A DNA stretch of 64,000 nt, taken from Actinomycetaceae bacterium. Lineage in GTDB: Bacteria > Actinomycetota > Actinomycetes > Actinomycetales > Actinomycetaceae. The position numbers and the translations under genes are program-made. Of the stretch, positions 37,979 through 46,445 are shown piece after piece (positions within the stretch are counted from its first letter, which is position 1; each line of letters opens with the position of its first letter). The notes under the pieces were generated by a model. It had not been told where the DNA came from. It saw only the letters and a list, made by a program, of their open reading frames with translations, and did no database searches. Where the stretch lies: contig JAUNAP010000002.1 in assembly GCA_030527545.1 (NCBI GenBank), forward strand, positions 124,001 to 188,000, given 5' to 3'.

Positions 37979-38728
37979 TTAGGTGTTTTGAAGGATCTCG
38001 ATGATCGGGCGGTAGTGGTCGTTGACCGCGGCGACGTACGCGCCGATGTCGCCCGCGTAGGCCGCCGTAAGCATGCTGCCGTGGCTGCGGGCGGTCTCTG
38101 TGAGACGAGAGGTGATCGTGGCGGGGGAGAGCTTGGGCAAGACGATCTGGTGGACCCGCCACAGCGAGTTCACGAGTTGACGGACGACCTCGTTGCCGGC
38201 CTGGGCAAGCAAGCCATCGTGGAAGACTAGGTCGAGATCGGTAAACATCTCCCCGGCCTCGGCCTTGGCGACCATGGCGTCAACGACGCGCGCAAGTTCG
38301 TCCTGATCGGTACCCTCGAGGGCGCCGCACACGAGCCCGGCGGTGCCCTGATCGAGGAACTTACGGACCTGAACGACCTCGAGGAGGGTTGAGCGGTCGG
38401 CTCCGGCCGTCATTTCCGCACGGAAGGCGAGGGCCTCGACGAGAGGGACCATGGACATGGAGCCGACGAAGGTCCCCGACCCCTGTTTGACGGTAACGAT
38501 GTCGAGCGCCTGGAGATGACGGATAGCCTCACGCACCGACGAGCGCGAGACACCGAGCGCATCGATGAGCTCTTGTTCGCTTGGGAGGGGGTCGCCAGGA
38601 CGCAGCCCCTCGGTGAGGATGAGGTTCTTGATTCCCTCGCCGGTCGCCGCCGAGCGGGAGATACGTTCGATGGGACCGAGTCCGCGCCGAGCGGTACGGT
38701 TCGGCTGCCAGGAGGTGAGTGGATCCAT
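37979..38728 (-). CDS. nanR: GntR-family (FadR/FCD) transcriptional regulator, probable NanR
   Basis: 249 residues. An N-terminal winged helix-turn-helix (about 30-90; LRPGDPLPSEQELIDALGVSRSSVREAIRHLQALDIVTVKQGSGTFV) is followed by an all-helical FCD effector domain (about 110-235) with FHDGLLAQAGNEVVRQLV and the family's metal-binding aspartate and histidines (FTDLDLVFHD, RSHGSML, NDHY). Convergent with the importer operon. FCD-type regulators of sialic acid genes usually bind sialic acid or ManNAc-6-P and repress the locus; the shared palindromes in nan promoters fit, but binding is inferred. Confidence 0.78.
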   Translation of the reverse strand: MDPLTSWQPNRTARRGLGPIERISRSAATGEGIKNLILTEGLRPGDPLPSEQELIDALGVSRSSVREAIRHLQALDIVTVKQGSGTFVGSMSMVPLVEALAFRAEMTAGADRSTLLEVVQVRKFLDQGTAGLVCGALEGTDQDELARVVDAMVAKAEAGEMFTDLDLVFHDGLLAQAGNEVVRQLVNSLWRVHQIVLPKLSPATITSRLTETARSHGSMLTAAYAGDIGAYVAAVNDHYRPIIEILQNT

Positions 38729-39039: not shown

Positions 39040-39393
39040 ATGAAGAAGGTTCTTGGAATGCTCGCGGCGCTGCTGGTTGTCGTGAGTGGTTCGATGTTTG
39101 TGTCGGCTGATCAGGCCAGCGCGGCTCCCCAGTGTGCCGCCGGCTATGTGTGTATGTGGACGGGTCGCGGGGGCGGTGGCACCAAGTACTCCTACGCCTC
39201 CTCTGCAAATCATACTCACAGGGTTGCTTCGGTGCACTACAACTACAACACTATGGGAATTAAGTTCATGAGGGGTCACAGCGGCACAGGGAAGGAGATT
39301 ACGCGCTACAATCTGCGTATGAGGGGGTTCCGTAATTGGAGTTCCAACAACTGGGATGTGTGCCGGTCCCACCAAGATATCTCCAACTGGTGA
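39040..39393 (+). CDS. Small secreted peptidase-inhibitor-I36-like protein (copy 1)
   Basis: 117 residues. Sec signal peptide (about 1-31, MKKVLGMLAALLVVVSG...ASA) followed by an ~86-residue mature domain. APQCAAGYVCMWTGRGGGG resembles the start of family I36 inhibitors such as SMI (CxxGYxCxW, then Gly and aromatic residues), with a late cysteine (WDVC). It is basic and aromatic-rich. AAGGAG precedes ATG 39040, and a good promoter lies 80 bases upstream. The copy at 42512 shares GYVC.WT, YASSANHTHR versus YARTANHRHA, and RGFRNW. Function unknown: a protease inhibitor, a bacteriocin-like effector or a surface ligand are all possible. It starts a two-gene module with a lipoprotein. Confidence 0.75.
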   Translation: MKKVLGMLAALLVVVSGSMFVSADQASAAPQCAAGYVCMWTGRGGGGTKYSYASSANHTHRVASVHYNYNTMGIKFMRGHSGTGKEITRYNLRMRGFRNWSSNNWDVCRSHQDISNW

Positions 39394-39400
39394 TTTTTTC

Positions 39401-39436
39401 TCGACGGTGGCGCGACTGCGGTTGCGCCACCGTCGA
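39401..39436 (+). terminator. Intercistronic hairpin inside module 1
   Basis: TCGACGGTGGCGC (39401-39413) pairs perfectly with GCGCCACCGTCGA (39424-39436). It lies between the small secreted protein gene and the lipoprotein gene and has no T-run after it, so it may allow partial read-through. Confidence 0.65.
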
Positions 39437-39458
39437 ATGTCTTAAATGAGGAAAAATT

Positions 39459-40325
39459 ATGAAGCGGCTAGGCGTATTAATTCTATTGATGCTCACCACT
39501 TTCTTGTGTCCGGCGTGCTCTCAAGGAGACGGTGATGAGGCGTGGCAGCCCCAAAAATCCCGCGTGAATCCACATATTTACCTCTCGGAGACTGATCAAA
39601 TCCTCTACCCCGACACCGCAGAAACGCGTGCGATTCGAGAAGCAGCTGCTGCGGTAGCTGAGCAATGCATGGCCGAACAGGGCTTTCCTGGCTTGCCGGC
39701 CACAAGAGCTCAGGCTGGCGTACTCATACTCCCGGGAAATGAGAGCGATGTAGAGCTGGTATACAACTATCACTCCCCCGAAAATTCAAGAAAATATGGC
39801 GTCACGGCCCCTGAATTTCACGAAAAGCGACATAAGCAAGATTATCCACCTGCAATATCCGAAGATGCTCAGACTGTTCTCAACAATTGTCTCGATGCTG
39901 TGGAGAAACAAATTTATGGCAACCTGAAGAAAATGCAAGAGCTTGAGCAGCAGGCCATGGGTATTAATAACTCTGTTGATGTTGCGGATGTGCAGAAAAG
40001 CGCCGAGCGTGAATGGGCGAAGTGTATGAAGGAGAGAGGGTTGGGGCGATTTGATGCAGTTGCAGGGATTTTCGGTCCGACCGGTGATGAGAATGGGCCT
40101 GAATGGCCTGATCCCAGGCCTAATCCGGAGGAAATCCGTGTCGCGCAAGCCTCTGGCGAATGTATGATCGAGACAGGATATCTCGAGACGGTGACGCGCG
40201 CGAACGCGATAGCTGTGCATGAGGAACTCCAGAAACATCCGGGTGTTATTACGGAGTGGAAAAAGATCCGGCAGGAACAGGTCGAGGCAGCTCAGGAACT
40301 CGGTAAGAGTCCAAACAAAAGATGA
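39459..40325 (+). CDS. Cys-Met-motif lipoprotein (copy 1)
   Basis: 288 residues, not recognised beyond its paralogues here. Lipobox LCPAC (Cys near residue 20), then a mature protein sharing with the copy at 42884: SRVNPHIYLSETDQILYPDTAET, CMAEQGFPG, KYGVTAPEFHE, CMKERGLGRFDAV, PTGDENG, EIRVAQASGECMIETGYLE and the tail RANAIAVHEELQKHPGVITEW. Four cysteines outside the lipobox recur as Cys-Met or lone Cys pairs, suggesting disulfides. GAGGAAA precedes the ATG. The gene is AT-rich for this genome (42-45% GC in sampled lines), a sign of transfer. It would face the outside of the membrane. Confidence 0.75.
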   Translation: MKRLGVLILLMLTTFLCPACSQGDGDEAWQPQKSRVNPHIYLSETDQILYPDTAETRAIREAAAAVAEQCMAEQGFPGLPATRAQAGVLILPGNESDVELVYNYHSPENSRKYGVTAPEFHEKRHKQDYPPAISEDAQTVLNNCLDAVEKQIYGNLKKMQELEQQAMGINNSVDVADVQKSAEREWAKCMKERGLGRFDAVAGIFGPTGDENGPEWPDPRPNPEEIRVAQASGECMIETGYLETVTRANAIAVHEELQKHPGVITEWKKIRQEQVEAAQELGKSPNKR

Positions 40326-40489
40326 AAGGCGAGTGGGCTCGGAGAGTAGTTCGGCGTCATCGGGAAGCGTCTGGCCTGCAAGCTACGACTTGGGGAAAAG
40401 AGGGTCGTTCGGGTGCGGAGTTCGTCGCGACTGGCTACGGCGGGGGTGCCATACTGGAGGGGGCCTGCCAATGTTCAGCAGAAAGGCGA

Positions 40490-41275
40490 ATGATGGGTTG
40501 CTGTCGTGACGGTGAAGGAAAGACCGGGTGCTGCCGTGAGCGTGGCGGGGAGCCGGAGTGTCCGCTGAGACGGGCCGGCATTCCGCTGGTCGTGGGGGCG
40601 GCGACGTTTGGGTGGTATGCCCTGCCCGACGCGTGCCCGTCGCGACTGGGGCGCGCGATGACGAAAAGCGGCCTGCTGGCGGGAGCTGTCGCATCGGTGG
40701 CCGCCCTTGGAGGACTGCGGCTGAGCGATATCACGGGCGGCATCAAGACTGCGAAACGCGCGTGCGCGGAAGGCGACCGCACGGTGACGCCGGCGGGCGC
40801 ACGTGACTTCGGTAGCGAGGACGAGGCGATCGGTGTCGAACCGGAGGGACGCGACGTGTTGGGCACCCTACGTGACCGCAAGACCTTCGAGGCCGGTGGT
40901 CGTTGTGGGTGTGGCAGCGATCGTCCGAAGCAGCGGGGACAAGGCGGATGCTGCAAGGACACAAGTGACGGATCCGGCCCACGCGAGGAGAACGGATGCT
41001 GCCGCGGCGGCAAGACCGCGCGAGAGGCGTCGACTCCGGATGCGGTCGAGCGCGGCGTGTCCCTCAGCGGCAAGAAGCTGCTTGCGATCGGCGGCGGTCT
41101 CGCGGCGCTCGCTGTCGTGGAGCAGAGCATCATCTACCGCATCGGCGAGGCGCTCAAGCGGCGTGGCGTCTCACACGCGCACACGAAGCAGGCGGCCCTC
41201 CTGGGAGCGCTCGCGTTCGTGGGAGCGTGGGGCGTCGATTGGCGGCCCGACGGCGAGGATGCGAAGGACAGCTAG
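40490..41275 (+). CDS. Cys-rich membrane protein with repeated GCC motifs
   Basis: About 261 residues, not recognised. The N-terminus MMGCCRDGEGKTGCCRERGG and a central stretch (GRCGCGSDRPKQRGQGGCCKD...ENGCCRGGK) carry repeated GCC-R/K motifs. Between and after them lie hydrophobic segments (IPLVVGAATFGWYAL, KSGLLAGAVASVAALGGL, KLLAIGGGLAALAVVEQSIIY, QAALLGALAFVGAWGV). ATG 40490 is chosen for the GAAAGG site just upstream; an earlier in-frame start would overlap the lipoprotein gene. The vicinal cysteines could bind metal or be lipid-modified or redox-active. It lies between the module and nrdF. Confidence 0.6.
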   Translation: MMGCCRDGEGKTGCCRERGGEPECPLRRAGIPLVVGAATFGWYALPDACPSRLGRAMTKSGLLAGAVASVAALGGLRLSDITGGIKTAKRACAEGDRTVTPAGARDFGSEDEAIGVEPEGRDVLGTLRDRKTFEAGGRCGCGSDRPKQRGQGGCCKDTSDGSGPREENGCCRGGKTAREASTPDAVERGVSLSGKKLLAIGGGLAALAVVEQSIIYRIGEALKRRGVSHAHTKQAALLGALAFVGAWGVDWRPDGEDAKDS

Positions 41276-41316
41276 TCGCGGGACGTAAGCTTCTGGGTGG
41301 TAGAGACCGTGAGTGA

Positions 41317-42294
<978 letters not shown>

Positions 42295-42301
42295 ATATCC
42301 C

Positions 42302-42333
42302 CGTGGGTGGCATCGGGCACGATGCCACCCACG
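42302..42333 (+). terminator. Hairpin after nrdF
   Basis: CGTGGGTGGCATCG (42302-42315) pairs perfectly with CGATGCCACCCACG (42320-42333) around a 4-base loop. The following ATTCCAT has only a short T stretch. Confidence 0.7.
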
Positions 42334-42511
42334 ATTCCATACTCGGTAACTCCTCGCCTATGTGTGGGCTCGCTGTCGATGCTTCCGATCCGAGGGGGAG
42401 TGAGGCGTGCCCCGTGGCTATGATGCTGAGACGTGCGTGGAAAACCCACGCGCATATGCGGCTCGTGGTAGTATTCTTGCGTTCCTATAGATCTCACACA
42501 AGGAGGTTGAG

Positions 42512-42856
42512 ATGAAGAAGATCGGCACAGCCGTTATGGTTGCTCTCGCATGTCTCGGGGGTGTAGTGCTGCCAGCATCCGAGGCGAACGCCGCTCCGTC
42601 ATGTCCGTCCGGATACGTGTGCACGTGGACTGAGCGTAACGGAGGTGGTAAAGAATACCGCTATGCTCGCACGGCCAATCACAGGCATGCGATTCAGTCT
42701 GTCTACTTCAACTACGGCTCGTGGAATACCATGTTTACGACTAAAGCGGACGGGCGGGGCAGGGTGTTGGCTGCTTACTACACGAATCAGCGTGGTTTCC
42801 GGAACTGGGATCCGGTGAATCGATGGACCTGTAAGTCTCACAGAGACTTCAAGTAG
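42512..42856 (+). CDS. Small secreted peptidase-inhibitor-I36-like protein (copy 2)
   Basis: 114 residues. Signal peptide (about 1-29, ending ASEANAA), mature start APSCPSGYVCTWTERNGGGKEYRY, a central YFNYGSWNTMF and a late RGFRNWDPVNRWTCKSH. It shares the cysteine spacing and RGFRNW with the copy at 39040, with clearly different surface residues. AAGGAGG lies seven bases before ATG; a TATAGAT box at 42486-42492 may be its -10. It is followed 27 bases later by the paralogous lipoprotein gene. Function unknown, as for copy 1. Confidence 0.75.
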   Translation: MKKIGTAVMVALACLGGVVLPASEANAAPSCPSGYVCTWTERNGGGKEYRYARTANHRHAIQSVYFNYGSWNTMFTTKADGRGRVLAAYYTNQRGFRNWDPVNRWTCKSHRDFK

Positions 42857-42883
42857 GCTGTCGGCGGGATTGGGGTACTGGTG

Positions 42884-43801
42884 ATGTCTGCTCTTGCGAG
42901 AAAATGTCTGCGGCTGACGTGTGCTGCGTCGCTTCTTAGCCTGCTTTGTTCTGCCCTTGTTGGGTGCGGAAATACGCAGGCCGAGGATGAGAGCTGGACA
43001 CCCCGGGAATCGCGTGTTCAACCGCACCTGTACATGAGCGAAGCGGACATCATCATGTATCCCGATCAAGCCGACACCGATGCCATCGCCGCTGCCTTAG
43101 AGGCCTTTGGTACGCGGTGCATGACGGAGCGCGGATTCGGCGGCGTCGCGTCTGCGGGACGAGACGTCGCCGCGGTCCAACGGGTGCACGAGGAAGCAGC
43201 GATCCGCGACGTCTACGGCTACGTGCCTCCCGAGGATGCTCCCAAACAAGGTGTGACGGCCCGCGGTTGGTACGAATCGATGACCCGTAACGACGACGCT
43301 GCGCCGTCGCCTGCCTATAAGGAGGCCCTCCACGGCCAAACCGTAAACGGGCATCCCACGCCTGACAGCTGCCAAGGGCAGGCTATCGCGCGTTTCCTCC
43401 CTCACTACGACAGGTTCCTGCAGATCAACAGTGAGATCGAGAAACTCAACTTGCAGGTCGAAAATGACAGTGCCTACAAGAAAGTGGAGGCCGACGCGAC
43501 GCAGCGCTGGGCCGCGTGCATGGCTCAGGCGGGATACAGCCAATTCAAGACGGTGGAGTCACTTTCTAGCCCCACCGGAGACGAAAACTCCAACGTCGGC
43601 TGGCCCGCACCCAACCCGGGCCCCGAGGAGGTTGCTGTCGCGCGCGCGTCGAGTACGTGCATGATAGACACGCGCTATCTCGAGGACGTGTCGCGTGCCA
43701 ATGCGCAGGCCGTCCACAGGCTCATCGCCAAGAAGCCCGGTCTCATCACCGAGTGGCAGAAGCTTCGTCGCGCACAGGTGGATGCCGTTGCTGGCCAGTA
43801 G
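42884..43801 (+). CDS. Cys-Met-motif lipoprotein (copy 2)
   Basis: 305 residues. Lipobox LVGC (Cys near residue 26), then SRVQPHLYMSEADIIMYPDQADT, CMTERGFGG, KQGVTARGWYE, a CQ-containing middle, CMAQAGYSQF, SSPTGDENSNVGWP, STCMIDTRYLE and the tail RANAQAVHRLIAKKPGLITEWQKLRRAQ. The pattern of cysteines and the tail match the lipoprotein at 39459. Here GC is normal for the genome, unlike copy 1. The start ATG 42884 is one codon inside a GTG; no strong ribosome site. It overlaps the next gene by 20 bases. Confidence 0.75.
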   Translation: MSALARKCLRLTCAASLLSLLCSALVGCGNTQAEDESWTPRESRVQPHLYMSEADIIMYPDQADTDAIAAALEAFGTRCMTERGFGGVASAGRDVAAVQRVHEEAAIRDVYGYVPPEDAPKQGVTARGWYESMTRNDDAAPSPAYKEALHGQTVNGHPTPDSCQGQAIARFLPHYDRFLQINSEIEKLNLQVENDSAYKKVEADATQRWAACMAQAGYSQFKTVESLSSPTGDENSNVGWPAPNPGPEEVAVARASSTCMIDTRYLEDVSRANAQAVHRLIAKKPGLITEWQKLRRAQVDAVAGQ

Positions 43802-44702
43802 GGATCGGCGCCCCCGACGGTATGCGGGCGTGCTCGTCTGCCTCCTCCTACCGGTTCTCGCGACGGGCTGTCACTCTCACACCGATCGACACAGCACAAC
43901 CGGCGTCACTTCTACGGCCGCAACCGATCTTGTGCTGTCGGACTACGACCGCGAATCGCTGCGCCTATCTGCCAACGTTGAGACCTCGCTCGAAGCGGTC
44001 AACAACGCGGGACGAGACTGCTTGCGGTCACGAGGTGTCGACGACACCATCGATGAGGTCCACCCGGGCCTAGGGGAGTATCTGACGTGGCCTGATGGGC
44101 GCGACGCCCTCAACAGGCGTTACCAATATGTCTCCGAGGAGATGGCCACTCGAGACGGCTTCGCGCCCCCGTCACTACGTGACACCGGCGACTACATTGG
44201 GCCACCTGAAGAAGAATGGACGCGGGCTGTCCTCGGTAGTGGAACTGAAAGCGAGCCCGCCCCTGGATCGTGCCTAGCGGAGATCTACGAGCGCTTCTCG
44301 CCCAACAAGAAACGTCTTGACGCTCTCAGCGCCACCATCGCCGACATCCTCGGTTCCGCCGAGTCGGCTAGCGAAGCGGCTGTGAGAGAGAAAGAACCCG
44401 TGTGGGCTGACTGCATGGCGAACAACGGCCTCGGACGGTACCGCACCATACGGTCAGTGACGACGCGTGACGGCGACGAAAATGGCGACGACCTGTGGCC
44501 CGGAAAGACCGCTGGCAACGACGAAAAGAACGTTGCCAGCGTGAGTGGACGCTGCATGATCGAAAGTGGCTATCTCCACGCCGTATCCGCGGCCGAGGCC
44601 ACCTCCGTCAATTCGTCCCTCAGGGAGCATCCACGCCTCCTCCACGAATGGGTGGGCCTCATGGGCGATCAGATCGATCGCGCCCTCAACGCCGGACGCT
44701 AG
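43782..44702 (+). CDS. Cys-Met-motif lipoprotein (copy 3, diverged)
   Basis: 306 residues. Lipobox LATGC (Cys near residue 30). More distant than the other two but with the same layout: CLRSRGVDD, CLAEIYERFSPNKKRLDALS, CMANNGLGRYRTIRSV, TRDGDENGDDLWPG, GRCMIESGYLHAV, and a tail SSLREHPRLLHEWVGLM. No I36-like partner of its own. It overlaps copy 2 and has AGGTGG right before its ATG, so the two are cotranscribed. Confidence 0.72.
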   Translation: MPLLASRDRRPRRYAGVLVCLLLPVLATGCHSHTDRHSTTGVTSTAATDLVLSDYDRESLRLSANVETSLEAVNNAGRDCLRSRGVDDTIDEVHPGLGEYLTWPDGRDALNRRYQYVSEEMATRDGFAPPSLRDTGDYIGPPEEEWTRAVLGSGTESEPAPGSCLAEIYERFSPNKKRLDALSATIADILGSAESASEAAVREKEPVWADCMANNGLGRYRTIRSVTTRDGDENGDDLWPGKTAGNDEKNVASVSGRCMIESGYLHAVSAAEATSVNSSLREHPRLLHEWVGLMGDQIDRALNAGR

Positions 44703-44709
44703 CGACTAG

Positions 44710-44745
44710 TTGCCAAGGCCACGAGACACCCCTAAGATCGAGGCC
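44710..44745 (+). promoter_or_regulatory. Promoter of the ABC-F gene
   Basis: TTGCCA (44710-44715), a 17-base spacer, TAAGAT (44733-44738). Expected transcription start is about 44745-44746, which coincides with the ATG of a three-codon ORF. Confidence 0.65.
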
Positions 44746-44757
44746 ATGAGGCTTTAA
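44746..44757 (+). CDS. Leaderless three-codon leader ORF (MRL)
   Basis: ATG AGG CTT TAA, encoding Met-Arg-Leu and a stop, placed right at the predicted transcript start. It precedes an ABC-F gene by 65 bases, and RNA stems follow it. Short leader ORFs that sense antibiotic-stalled ribosomes are known upstream of ABC-F resistance genes; that this one acts so is inference. Confidence 0.5.
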   Translation: MRL

Positions 44758-44818
44758 GAAACCGGTCAGCCGCGAGGTGAGGCACGCGCCCGCCGCGGAA
44801 CTACGTTCGAAGGTTTCT
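44757..44818 (+). promoter_or_regulatory. Nested leader stems, possible attenuator of the ABC-F gene
   Basis: AGAAACC (44757-44763), starting at the leader stop codon, is fully complementary to GGTTTCT (44812-44818) just before the ABC-F start. Inside it CCGCG (44770-44774) pairs with CGCGG (44794-44798). The outer stem covers the weak ribosome site AAGG. Confidence 0.5.
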
Positions 44819-44822
44819 CCTC

Positions 44823-46445
44823 ATGTCTCTCCACACACCCCTTGTCATCTCTGGACTCGCCGTCGGCTACCCCACACGCGACGTCTTCACCAATCTCTCG
44901 CTCACCGTCGCTCCCGGCCAGCCCACCGCCCTCATCGGCGACAACGGATGCGGCAAAACGACACTCCTTCAAGCCATCGCCGGGGTGGTCCAGCTGAGGT
45001 CCGGCACCATGAGCGCGCCCGGACGCATTGGTTATCTCGCCCAAGGAGCCCTCCCTCATGCCCGGGGCACGGTCAGCGACATCCTCGATCGCGCGATTGC
45101 CGACGATCGGGAGCTCGTCGAGGACTACAGCGCCGCCTGCGAAGCCCTAGCCGCAGACCCCAACGACGACGCAGCCGCCACCCGCATGGCCTCCCTCGCT
45201 GATGCCATCGACGCGCGAGACGCCTGGAACGCCCCCGACCGGCTCGCCCAACTCGCCACACTCCTGCGCGTCGACGAGGCAGCTCTCGGCAGGCCTCTCA
45301 CAGACACAGCCCTAGACACACTCTCGGGCGGACAGCGTGCCCGCCTCGCACTCGTCGCGCTCCTCGCCTCCCGTCCCGACGTCCTCCTCCTCGACGAACC
45401 CACCCTGCACCTCGACACCGCCGCGCAAGACGCACTCGCCGAGCATCTTCGCGACCACGAGGGCGTCGCACTCATCGCCAGCCACGACCGCGCCTTCCTC
45501 GACCGCACCTGCCGCACCTACGTCGACCTCGACCCGGCGCCACGGCAACGCAGCGAGGCCTCCAGCGACCCCGTCACCGTCTGGACCGGCACGTGGGAGG
45601 AGATCGTCGCCGCCAAGACCGCTCGTGACGACGCGTGGCGCACGACCTTCGCCCGTCAACGCGACACCCTCAACGCCTTGCGTGCCGCCGCCAACAAACC
45701 CTCCGAATCGAAGCACTACCGTGCCCACACTGAACAGGGGATGGCGCAGAAATTCTTTGCTGACCGCCACGCCACGGCACGAACGCGAGCCTGGGATCGC
45801 AAAGCCAAGAGAGTCGAAGAAGAGGCCGCACGCGAGATCCTCAAGCCACCGCCCGCCCTGCGCCTCGACGACTCCCCCGCACCCGCACGAGGAGTGGGAC
45901 TCACGCTACGCGGCGTCGCCGTTAGCGGCCGCCTTGCCCCCGTCACCCTCGACCTCGCCTCCGGCGAGCACCTACTCGTTGACGGCCCCAACGGAAGCGG
46001 CAAGACGACACTGCTGTCGGTACTCGCCGGCCAACTGGCCCCGAGCGAGGGCCACGCGGCACTACCCGACGCCCGCGACGTGGCGTGGGCCCGGCAATTT
46101 CCGCTCGCCGACCCCGACATCGCCTGGCTCACCGGAGGCGAGTATCTCGCGCGAGAAGGGCACACAGATTCCCTCCCCGCCGGACTCGTCACCGGTAGGG
46201 TCGCGCACACCCCGATCAGGCAGATGTCGGGCGGAGAACGCGCCCGCGTTGCCCTCGCCGCGGCTCTCGCCCAAGCCCCCGGGCTCTTGCTGCTCGACGA
46301 ACCGGGCAACGCCATTGCGCCCGTGCTGCTGACCGCCCTCGAGGACTCACTGCGCACATGGCCGGGAACCATCGTGTGGGTCAGTCACGACGCCTACCTG
46401 CGCAAACGCTGGTGGGGGAGGACCCTGGAACTGAGCGAGGCGTGA
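44823..46445 (+). CDS. ABC-F ATPase, ribosome-protection type candidate
   Basis: 540 residues with two ATPase domains and no membrane segments. First domain: GDNGCGKTTLLQ, LSGGQRARLALVALLA, VLLLDEPTLHLD. Second: DGPNGSGKTTLLS, MSGGERARVALAAALA, LLLLDEPGNAI. A charged linker of about 100 residues (TFARQRDTLNALRA...ARTRAWDRKAKRVEEEA) joins them. ABC-F proteins act on the ribosome; a subset frees it from antibiotics. The size, the gene's own promoter and the short leader ORF favour a resistance-type role. In other genomes close relatives are also simply called Uup- or duplicated-ATPase proteins. Confidence 0.85.
   Translation: MSLHTPLVISGLAVGYPTRDVFTNLSLTVAPGQPTALIGDNGCGKTTLLQAIAGVVQLRSGTMSAPGRIGYLAQGALPHARGTVSDILDRAIADDRELVEDYSAACEALAADPNDDAAATRMASLADAIDARDAWNAPDRLAQLATLLRVDEAALGRPLTDTALDTLSGGQRARLALVALLASRPDVLLLDEPTLHLDTAAQDALAEHLRDHEGVALIASHDRAFLDRTCRTYVDLDPAPRQRSEASSDPVTVWTGTWEEIVAAKTARDDAWRTTFARQRDTLNALRAAANKPSESKHYRAHTEQGMAQKFFADRHATARTRAWDRKAKRVEEEAAREILKPPPALRLDDSPAPARGVGLTLRGVAVSGRLAPVTLDLASGEHLLVDGPNGSGKTTLLSVLAGQLAPSEGHAALPDARDVAWARQFPLADPDIAWLTGGEYLAREGHTDSLPAGLVTGRVAHTPIRQMSGGERARVALAAALAQAPGLLLLDEPGNAIAPVLLTALEDSLRTWPGTIVWVSHDAYLRKRWWGRTLELSEA

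Follow-up and report, generated by a model that had tools for sequence, protein, structure and literature searches.

Two gene pairs in a 64,000-nucleotide stretch of an Actinomycetaceae bacterium genome (contig JAUNAP010000002.1, positions 124,001 to 188,000; hereafter the window, in whose numbering all coordinates are given) each join a small, predicted secreted protein of the I36/beta-gamma-crystallin type to an unnamed lipoprotein, and a third lipoprotein overlaps the second pair. Across the class, small signal-sequence genes stand beside such lipoproteins far more often than chance would place them, which marks the pair as a real and conserved unit. We tentatively read the pair as a bacteriocin-like, wall-binding effector together with its immunity lipoprotein. 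An original prediction, made from the DNA alone, had described the two pairs and suggested that the partners bind each other, for example as effector and immunity, inhibitor and anchor, or ligand and receptor. The genes it described are borne out by the open reading frames (ORFs):

39040..39393, plus strand: S1, small I36/beta-gamma-crystallin-like protein with a Sec-type signal sequence, 117 residues, from the ORF list
39459..40325, plus strand: Lp1, lipoprotein paired with S1, 288 residues, homologous to Lp2 by alignment
42512..42856, plus strand: S2, small I36/beta-gamma-crystallin-like protein with a Sec-type signal sequence, 114 residues, from the ORF list
42884..43801, plus strand: Lp2, lipoprotein paired with S2, 305 residues, with an alternative GTG start at 42881
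43782..44702, plus strand: Lp3, third lipoprotein, overlapping the 3' end of Lp2 and lacking a small partner of its own, 306 residues

The motifs quoted for these proteins are present as described, namely GYVCxWT, YAxxxNH and RGFRNW in both small proteins and YPDxA(E/D)T, CMxxxG, PTGDEN and PGxITEW in Lp1 and Lp2. The signal sequences of S1 and S2 were read by eye and with a hydrophobicity test. Lipoboxes are usual or nearly so in Lp2 (LVGC) and Lp3 (ATGC) and atypical in Lp1 (CPAC). Lp3 belongs to the same lipoprotein family (E=1.3e-23), where it forms a long branch within the window clade. S2 passes the threshold of PF03995 (Inhibitor_I36) with 26.9 bits (E=4.5e-6, cut-off 21.1), and S1 is borderline, scoring 19.0 bits (E=0.0014) in a direct scan and 22.5 bits when its neighbours in frame are counted. 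None of the three lipoproteins reaches the cut-off of any Pfam or NCBIfam family.

Evidence for the unit comes from its distribution. Profile A3 (E<=1e-5) matches the lipoprotein in 82 of the 396 genomes sampled from the order and profile A7 (E<=1e-10) in 82 of the 394 sampled from the class, counts that come from different profiles and cut-offs with five candidates scored per genome. Of 20 order regions inspected by eye, 15 show a small signal-sequence gene immediately before a lipoprotein (L131 and L141 for just one of their two lipoproteins) and 13 have an exporter behind the lipoprotein; two of these 15 small proteins, those of L137 and L144, reach the cut-off of no Pfam family. Outside the order, 18 of 20 class regions have the small gene, which is mostly I36-like, and PF03995 is matched by 8 of 10 small proteins tested (7 above cut-off); four of the 20 carry an exporter, and in two of these four the small gene is absent. 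When a fixed test was applied to the 40 regions, which were hand-picked for taxonomic spread with rows that looked like the exporter type excluded, a small signal-sequence ORF lay upstream of 35 of 43 lipoproteins vs 18 of 137 other genes (Fisher p=1.4e-16; some of the 18 are the same I36 genes counted again, and the test misses the I36 gene of L126). In 20 of the excluded regions (L165-L184), a loose test found an upstream small ORF for 4 of 23 lipoproteins, none of which resembles a small secreted partner by eye, and an adaptor for 20 of 23; this exporter branch consists of an unnamed lipoprotein and a MacAB-type operon of adaptor, ATPase and permease. The order and class survey thus identifies the lipoprotein as the fixed element, with the small protein and the pump each missing in places. 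At L127 (genome G220) an I36-like gene lies on the opposite strand, apparently divergent from a lipoprotein-exporter operon.

Within the family, profile A1 finds the lipoprotein patchily, in 39 of 213 genomes. Profiles built in this analysis were used to scan 57 regions, yielding 67 lipoprotein clusters with the source genome included; a cluster from Jiangella, outside the family, was tabulated and is not among the 67. An intact small gene lies directly upstream in 31 clusters (15 I36, 14 of the PG_binding_1 type, or PGB, and 2 SH3-like) and a partial one in three more (L058, L067 and L084), and an adaptor directly follows the lipoprotein in 42. Lipoproteins outnumber small genes in several arrays, reaching 4:1 in L053, L054 and L076. 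The L053 and L054 arrays, both in genome G183, are nearly identical (a PGB small gene followed by four lipoproteins, with no exporter) and lie in opposite orientation about 160 kb apart. Lipoproteins mostly without an I36 neighbour were to count as a refutation of the original prediction. Taken literally, this holds family-wide, as an intact I36 gene precedes the lipoprotein in only 15 of the 67 clusters. It is not so in the window clade, where six of eight lipoproteins (nine minus Lp3) have an intact upstream I36 gene and the remaining two had theirs deleted.

The reciprocal search gives a similar picture. The I36 profile A4 returned 49 rows in 35 of the 213 family genomes. All of the 16 strongest matches adjoin such a lipoprotein (that of G049 only a fragment, about 0.5 kb away). 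Twenty regions around weaker matches divide evenly: ten hold 15 I36-lipoprotein pairs, with two pairs per operon at five loci (one pair has a truncated small gene, and one a lipoprotein that runs off the contig), and ten hold a different type of I36 protein and no such lipoprotein. Six weak rows of the 49 were left out (G024, G042, G066, G131, G132 and one of G006).

Further copies in the source genome, a metagenome-assembled genome of 1.75 Mb and 80.65% completeness (G000), connect the pair to an exporter. A protein search returned six lipoproteins (five close and one weak) and PF03995 four I36 genes, three of them also found with S2 as the query. Contig C8 has two extra pairs, and each heads an operon that continues with a MacA-like adaptor of the peptidoglycan-binding kind and then a MacB-like ATP-binding cassette (ABC) transporter. 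In locus L008 the order is I36, lipoprotein, PG_binding_1 adaptor, ABC ATPase and MacB/FtsX permease; the L009 operon is arranged alike, except that its ATPase and permease are fused. The L008 pump carries PF02687 (65.7 bits) and PF12704 (41.8 bits), and its separate adaptor PF01471 (33.9 bits). No match to the adaptor (ADAPT) or permease (PERM) profile was found in the window, and the ABC gene at 44823, beside the second pair, is of another type. A reading in terms of two partners is therefore incomplete, since the window copies lack the MacAB-like exporter to which many of their relatives are joined.

It is incomplete in a second respect, in that I36 is only one of several interchangeable types. 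In the family, the small-gene slot holds I36/beta-gamma-crystallin, PG_binding_1 or SH3-like proteins, the last named by eye; PF01471 was matched by all five PGB proteins tested, the SH3-like protein of L072 has no Pfam match, and one relative matches SH3_3 below cut-off. These types follow the lipoprotein clades closely. On a 95-row lipoprotein tree only two changes, the minimum for three types, are needed over 58 labelled rows, a count that omits the 37 unlabelled rows and gives paralogues from the same array a common label; with shuffled labels the number of changes is far higher, and near copies within arrays help to keep the count low. A 76-row version was also made for this mapping; rows shorter than 250 residues were dropped from it, and new rows with fewer than 220 residues after the cysteine, or in which no cysteine was found, from the 95-row tree. 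Two of the family loci with the other type of I36 protein and no such lipoprotein (L107 in G005 and L116 in G043) carry I36 fused to a peptidase M23 domain (PF01551, E=5.2e-14) or an M15-like domain (E=9e-4, below cut-off), which suggests that I36 can serve as a wall-targeting module. Taken together, the three small types and the hydrolase fusions point to one shared, predicted job, that of wall binding. The small proteins of G071 and G069 (L113 and L123) are 90% identical in the signal sequence and 59% in the mature part, which hints that the latter has diversified or recombined.

The I36 profile A4, for which 14 family proteins served as seeds, matches the beta-gamma-crystallin spherulin 3a (1hdf; E=5e-5, two motifs), and S2 as a lone query finds no crystallin at E<=5. 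The structure model of S2 has a mean predicted local distance difference test score (pLDDT) of 58.2; that of Lp2 is all-helical with good confidence (pLDDT 83.6) and has no clear match in the PDB. Four cysteines besides the lipobox are invariant in the 38-row lipoprotein alignment A7.

In the source genome, the upstream copy in L008 consists of a tandem lipoprotein whose I36 gene is reduced to a 56-bp stretch around the start codon and a 3' end; this copy continues into the very start of the adaptor gene. The retained lipoprotein is under purifying selection, with a ratio of nonsynonymous to synonymous substitution rates (dN/dS) of 0.18. When compared with G204 and G206, G205 has lost its I36 gene by a clean deletion from an operon that is otherwise intact, exporter included, and its lipoprotein has a dN/dS of 0.20 vs G204 and 0.37 vs G206. 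The small gene is truncated or frameshifted at four further loci (L058, L067, L084 and L119).

Of the options first put forward, effector and immunity is judged the best. The small protein would leave the cell by the Sec route, bind the wall and act on neighbouring cells, while the lipoprotein on the producer's own membrane would capture it, and the pump might push the captured effector outward by mechanotransmission, a mechanism proposed for MacB. In the window, where the pairs are pump-less, the lipoprotein would have to act by itself or together with the pumps that contig C8 encodes. Support was counted from the signal sequences, the lipoboxes, the conserved gene order and the clade-tied, interchangeable small types; from cases in which the small gene was lost while purifying selection acted on the retained lipoprotein, and from lipoprotein-rich arrays; and from the MacAB-like operon in many relatives and the patchy, accessory distribution.

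Several observations weigh against the effector and immunity interpretation. A small gene is missing from 33 of the 67 clusters in the family table, a count that includes the G000 and G205 deletions and two clusters at the end of a contig. At L062, L093, L099 and L120, lipoproteins that no small gene directly precedes are broken or partial. The exporter branch, lacking the small gene, implies a role for the lipoprotein that is independent of it. Reverse losses also occur, with an intact I36 gene beside a frameshifted lipoprotein in L069 and near a decayed lipoprotein and exporter in L095, and at 6 to 2 the asymmetry between small-gene and lipoprotein losses is not significant alone. L147 has three tandem I36-like genes before one lipoprotein, the opposite of the usual excess. 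As to the small proteins themselves, the calcium motif of beta-gamma-crystallins, (N/D)(N/D)xx(S/T)S, is present in 8 of 9 other family I36 seeds and in none of the five I36 proteins of the window clade. No Pfam cut-off is reached by L137, L144, L149 or the SH3-like L072, L133, L138 and L162, and matches of L135, L140 and L146 stay under theirs. In the window clade, moreover, the small proteins evolve more slowly than the lipoproteins.

Covariation adds to the same side of the balance. Distances of small proteins and lipoproteins agree over 13 I36 loci (Mantel r=0.85, p=0.0002). In a set of 10 I36 loci, however, the small protein correlates about equally with the lipoprotein (0.91), adaptor (0.88), permease (0.94) and ATPase (0.91), and the partial correlation with the lipoprotein is 0.63 (p=0.001) given the adaptor and 0.19 (p=0.10) given the permease. 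The pair covaries no more strongly than the operon does as a whole. The proposal that both partners have diverged in step holds only in part: G211 and G204 share 79% identity in the small protein and only 40% in the lipoprotein, which argues against tight matching within the pair.

The main rival to an effector and its immunity protein is a sensor of wall state, in which a self-made wall-binding protein would act as ligand or probe and the lipoprotein as a receptor relaying the signal, or the ligand itself, to the MacAB-like pump or a neighbouring two-component system, with no toxin involved. Exporter-type lipoproteins that function without a small gene would suit such a sensor, as would the slower evolution of the small proteins in the window clade. 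So would the response-regulator-like genes upstream at L057, L078 and L079 (with sensor-like genes also at L078 and L079, all read by eye from translations) and the kinase- and regulator-like genes divergent to the Jiangella locus. The deletion in G205, which left lipoprotein and pump intact, is harder to accommodate, and several divergent pairs per operon exceed a sensor's needs. Beside the window pairs no two-component gene is seen in the ORF list, the only regulator being a GntR-like one upstream of S1. We consider a sensor unlikely on this balance.

Less likely still is dedicated secretion, whereby lipoprotein and pump would act as export machinery or chaperone and carry the small protein, once exported by Sec, across a thick wall. 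The peptidoglycan-binding adaptor and the co-inheritance of the whole operon agree with this, and the MacB family offers a precedent in MacAB-TolC, which exports enterotoxin STII (PMC5985334). Elsewhere in the class, however, the pair is mostly pump-less, and in G000 copy 1 and G205 the lipoprotein has outlived its cargo, so that we regard an export role as improbable. That the I36 protein inhibits a metalloprotease, the activity for which its family is named, and is tethered by the lipoprotein is suggested by the Pfam match of S2; with PG_binding_1 and SH3-like proteins in the same slot and I36 domains fused to wall hydrolases elsewhere in the family, such an inhibitor seems very improbable. 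An anti-phage or superinfection-exclusion pair at the cell surface would fit the patchy distribution and accessory site and is scarcely credible, with no PADLOC match (E<=0.1), no PHROG match, no match of S2 in a phage collection and none of Lp2 in a plasmid collection.

Mature S1 and S2 are 45% identical and Lp1 and Lp2 39%. The G206 copy matches S1 at 57% identity, and S2 shares 54% with its counterparts in both G204 and G206; Lp2 reaches 42% with G204, and the best value for Lp1 is 39%, tied among several. A recent duplication of the pair is unsupported, as each small protein is nearer to copies in other genomes. Trees neither recover nor reject the window copies as sisters (approximately unbiased test, p-AU 0.26 and 0.35), and a duplication inside this genome is therefore not established. 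Comparison with G134, a genome of the same genus, defines the site of the second pair:

41326..42294, plus strand: a gene we take to be an nrdF homologue, conserved flank outside the system, 96% amino acid identity to G134
42295..44822, no strand: accessory stretch from nrdF to the ABC-F-like gene, by synteny with G134 (region L186)

Between these two flanking genes G134 has about 114 bp, whereas here 2.5 kb holds S2, Lp2 and Lp3. Neither the lipoprotein profile nor the I36 profile gives a match in G134, and S1, Lp1, Lp2 and Lp3 have zero tblastn matches in the 19 kb of it that were examined. The S2-Lp2-Lp3 block is accessory, either gained here or lost in G134. The first pair is unusually AT-rich, with a GC content of 0.526 vs 0.64 for the window. 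Between Lp1 and nrdF lies a cysteine-rich ORF of no assigned family (40322-41275), a resident gene, since a 37% identical stretch occupies the same place in G134. Divergent to S1, on the minus strand at 37979-38728, is the GntR-like regulator, named by eye, beside a peptide-transporter-like cluster.

A broader proposal, which we think doubtful and put forward with less confidence than the effector and immunity pair itself, is that of an unrecognised, class-wide actinobacterial bacteriocin system. In such a system the effector would be a bare wall-binding domain, swappable between crystallin, peptidoglycan-binding and SH3 folds, and a fixed, new, all-helical lipoprotein would neutralise it and hand it to a wall-anchored MacAB-type pump. 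If the effector and immunity reading is right, Actinomyces proteins labelled 'peptidase inhibitor family I36' would be wall-directed weapons in these operons, as would the small lone peptidoglycan-binding proteins found there, and the lipoprotein, a 'hypothetical protein' in Scrofimicrobium, could be used as a marker for locating such operons. The pairing gives this unnamed lipoprotein family a setting, a few partners and a role that can be tested.

By analogy, the nearest described cases are LanI/LanFEG, YknXYZ and AS-48EFGH. Lantibiotic self-immunity is provided by the LanI lipoprotein and the LanFEG ABC transporter. Here too, a secreted effector gene, a lipoprotein and an ABC transporter are co-encoded, and capture of the effector at the membrane of the producing cell would fall to the lipoprotein; the adjacency of candidate effector and lipoprotein genes expected of a LanI-like system was found in the family, at the I36 loci and in the order and class regions. 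The systems differ in the effector, which here is a protein of roughly 105-180 residues predicted to be exported unmodified through Sec; in the pump, which here belongs to the MacB type and comes with an adaptor; and in the lipoprotein, for which no Pfam or NCBIfam model reaches its cut-off. Lactococcin 972 systems offer another comparison, as the ATPases of both C8 operons rank the exporter model TIGR03608 high, at 184.8 and 193.3 bits, yet below its cut-off of 254.85. I36 and Streptomyces beta-gamma-crystallin proteins are likewise small secreted actinobacterial proteins of the same fold, among them, presumably, the chitin-binding antifungal protein of S. tendae. That protein binds a wall polymer and alters fungal growth, and, unlike here, no lipoprotein partner is mentioned for it in the available part of its description (PMC2920538). 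For the pump, the likeness is to YknWXYZ of Bacillus and AS-48EFGH of Enterococcus, in which a MacA-like adaptor, an ATPase and a MacB-like permease are tied to protection from an endogenous toxin: YknXYZ protects against SDP, with YknX binding peptidoglycan, and a MacB-type transporter with its adaptor protects from AS-48. The toxins differ, and where those systems have an extra membrane protein (YknW or AS-48E), the operons described here have the lipoprotein (PMC5985334).

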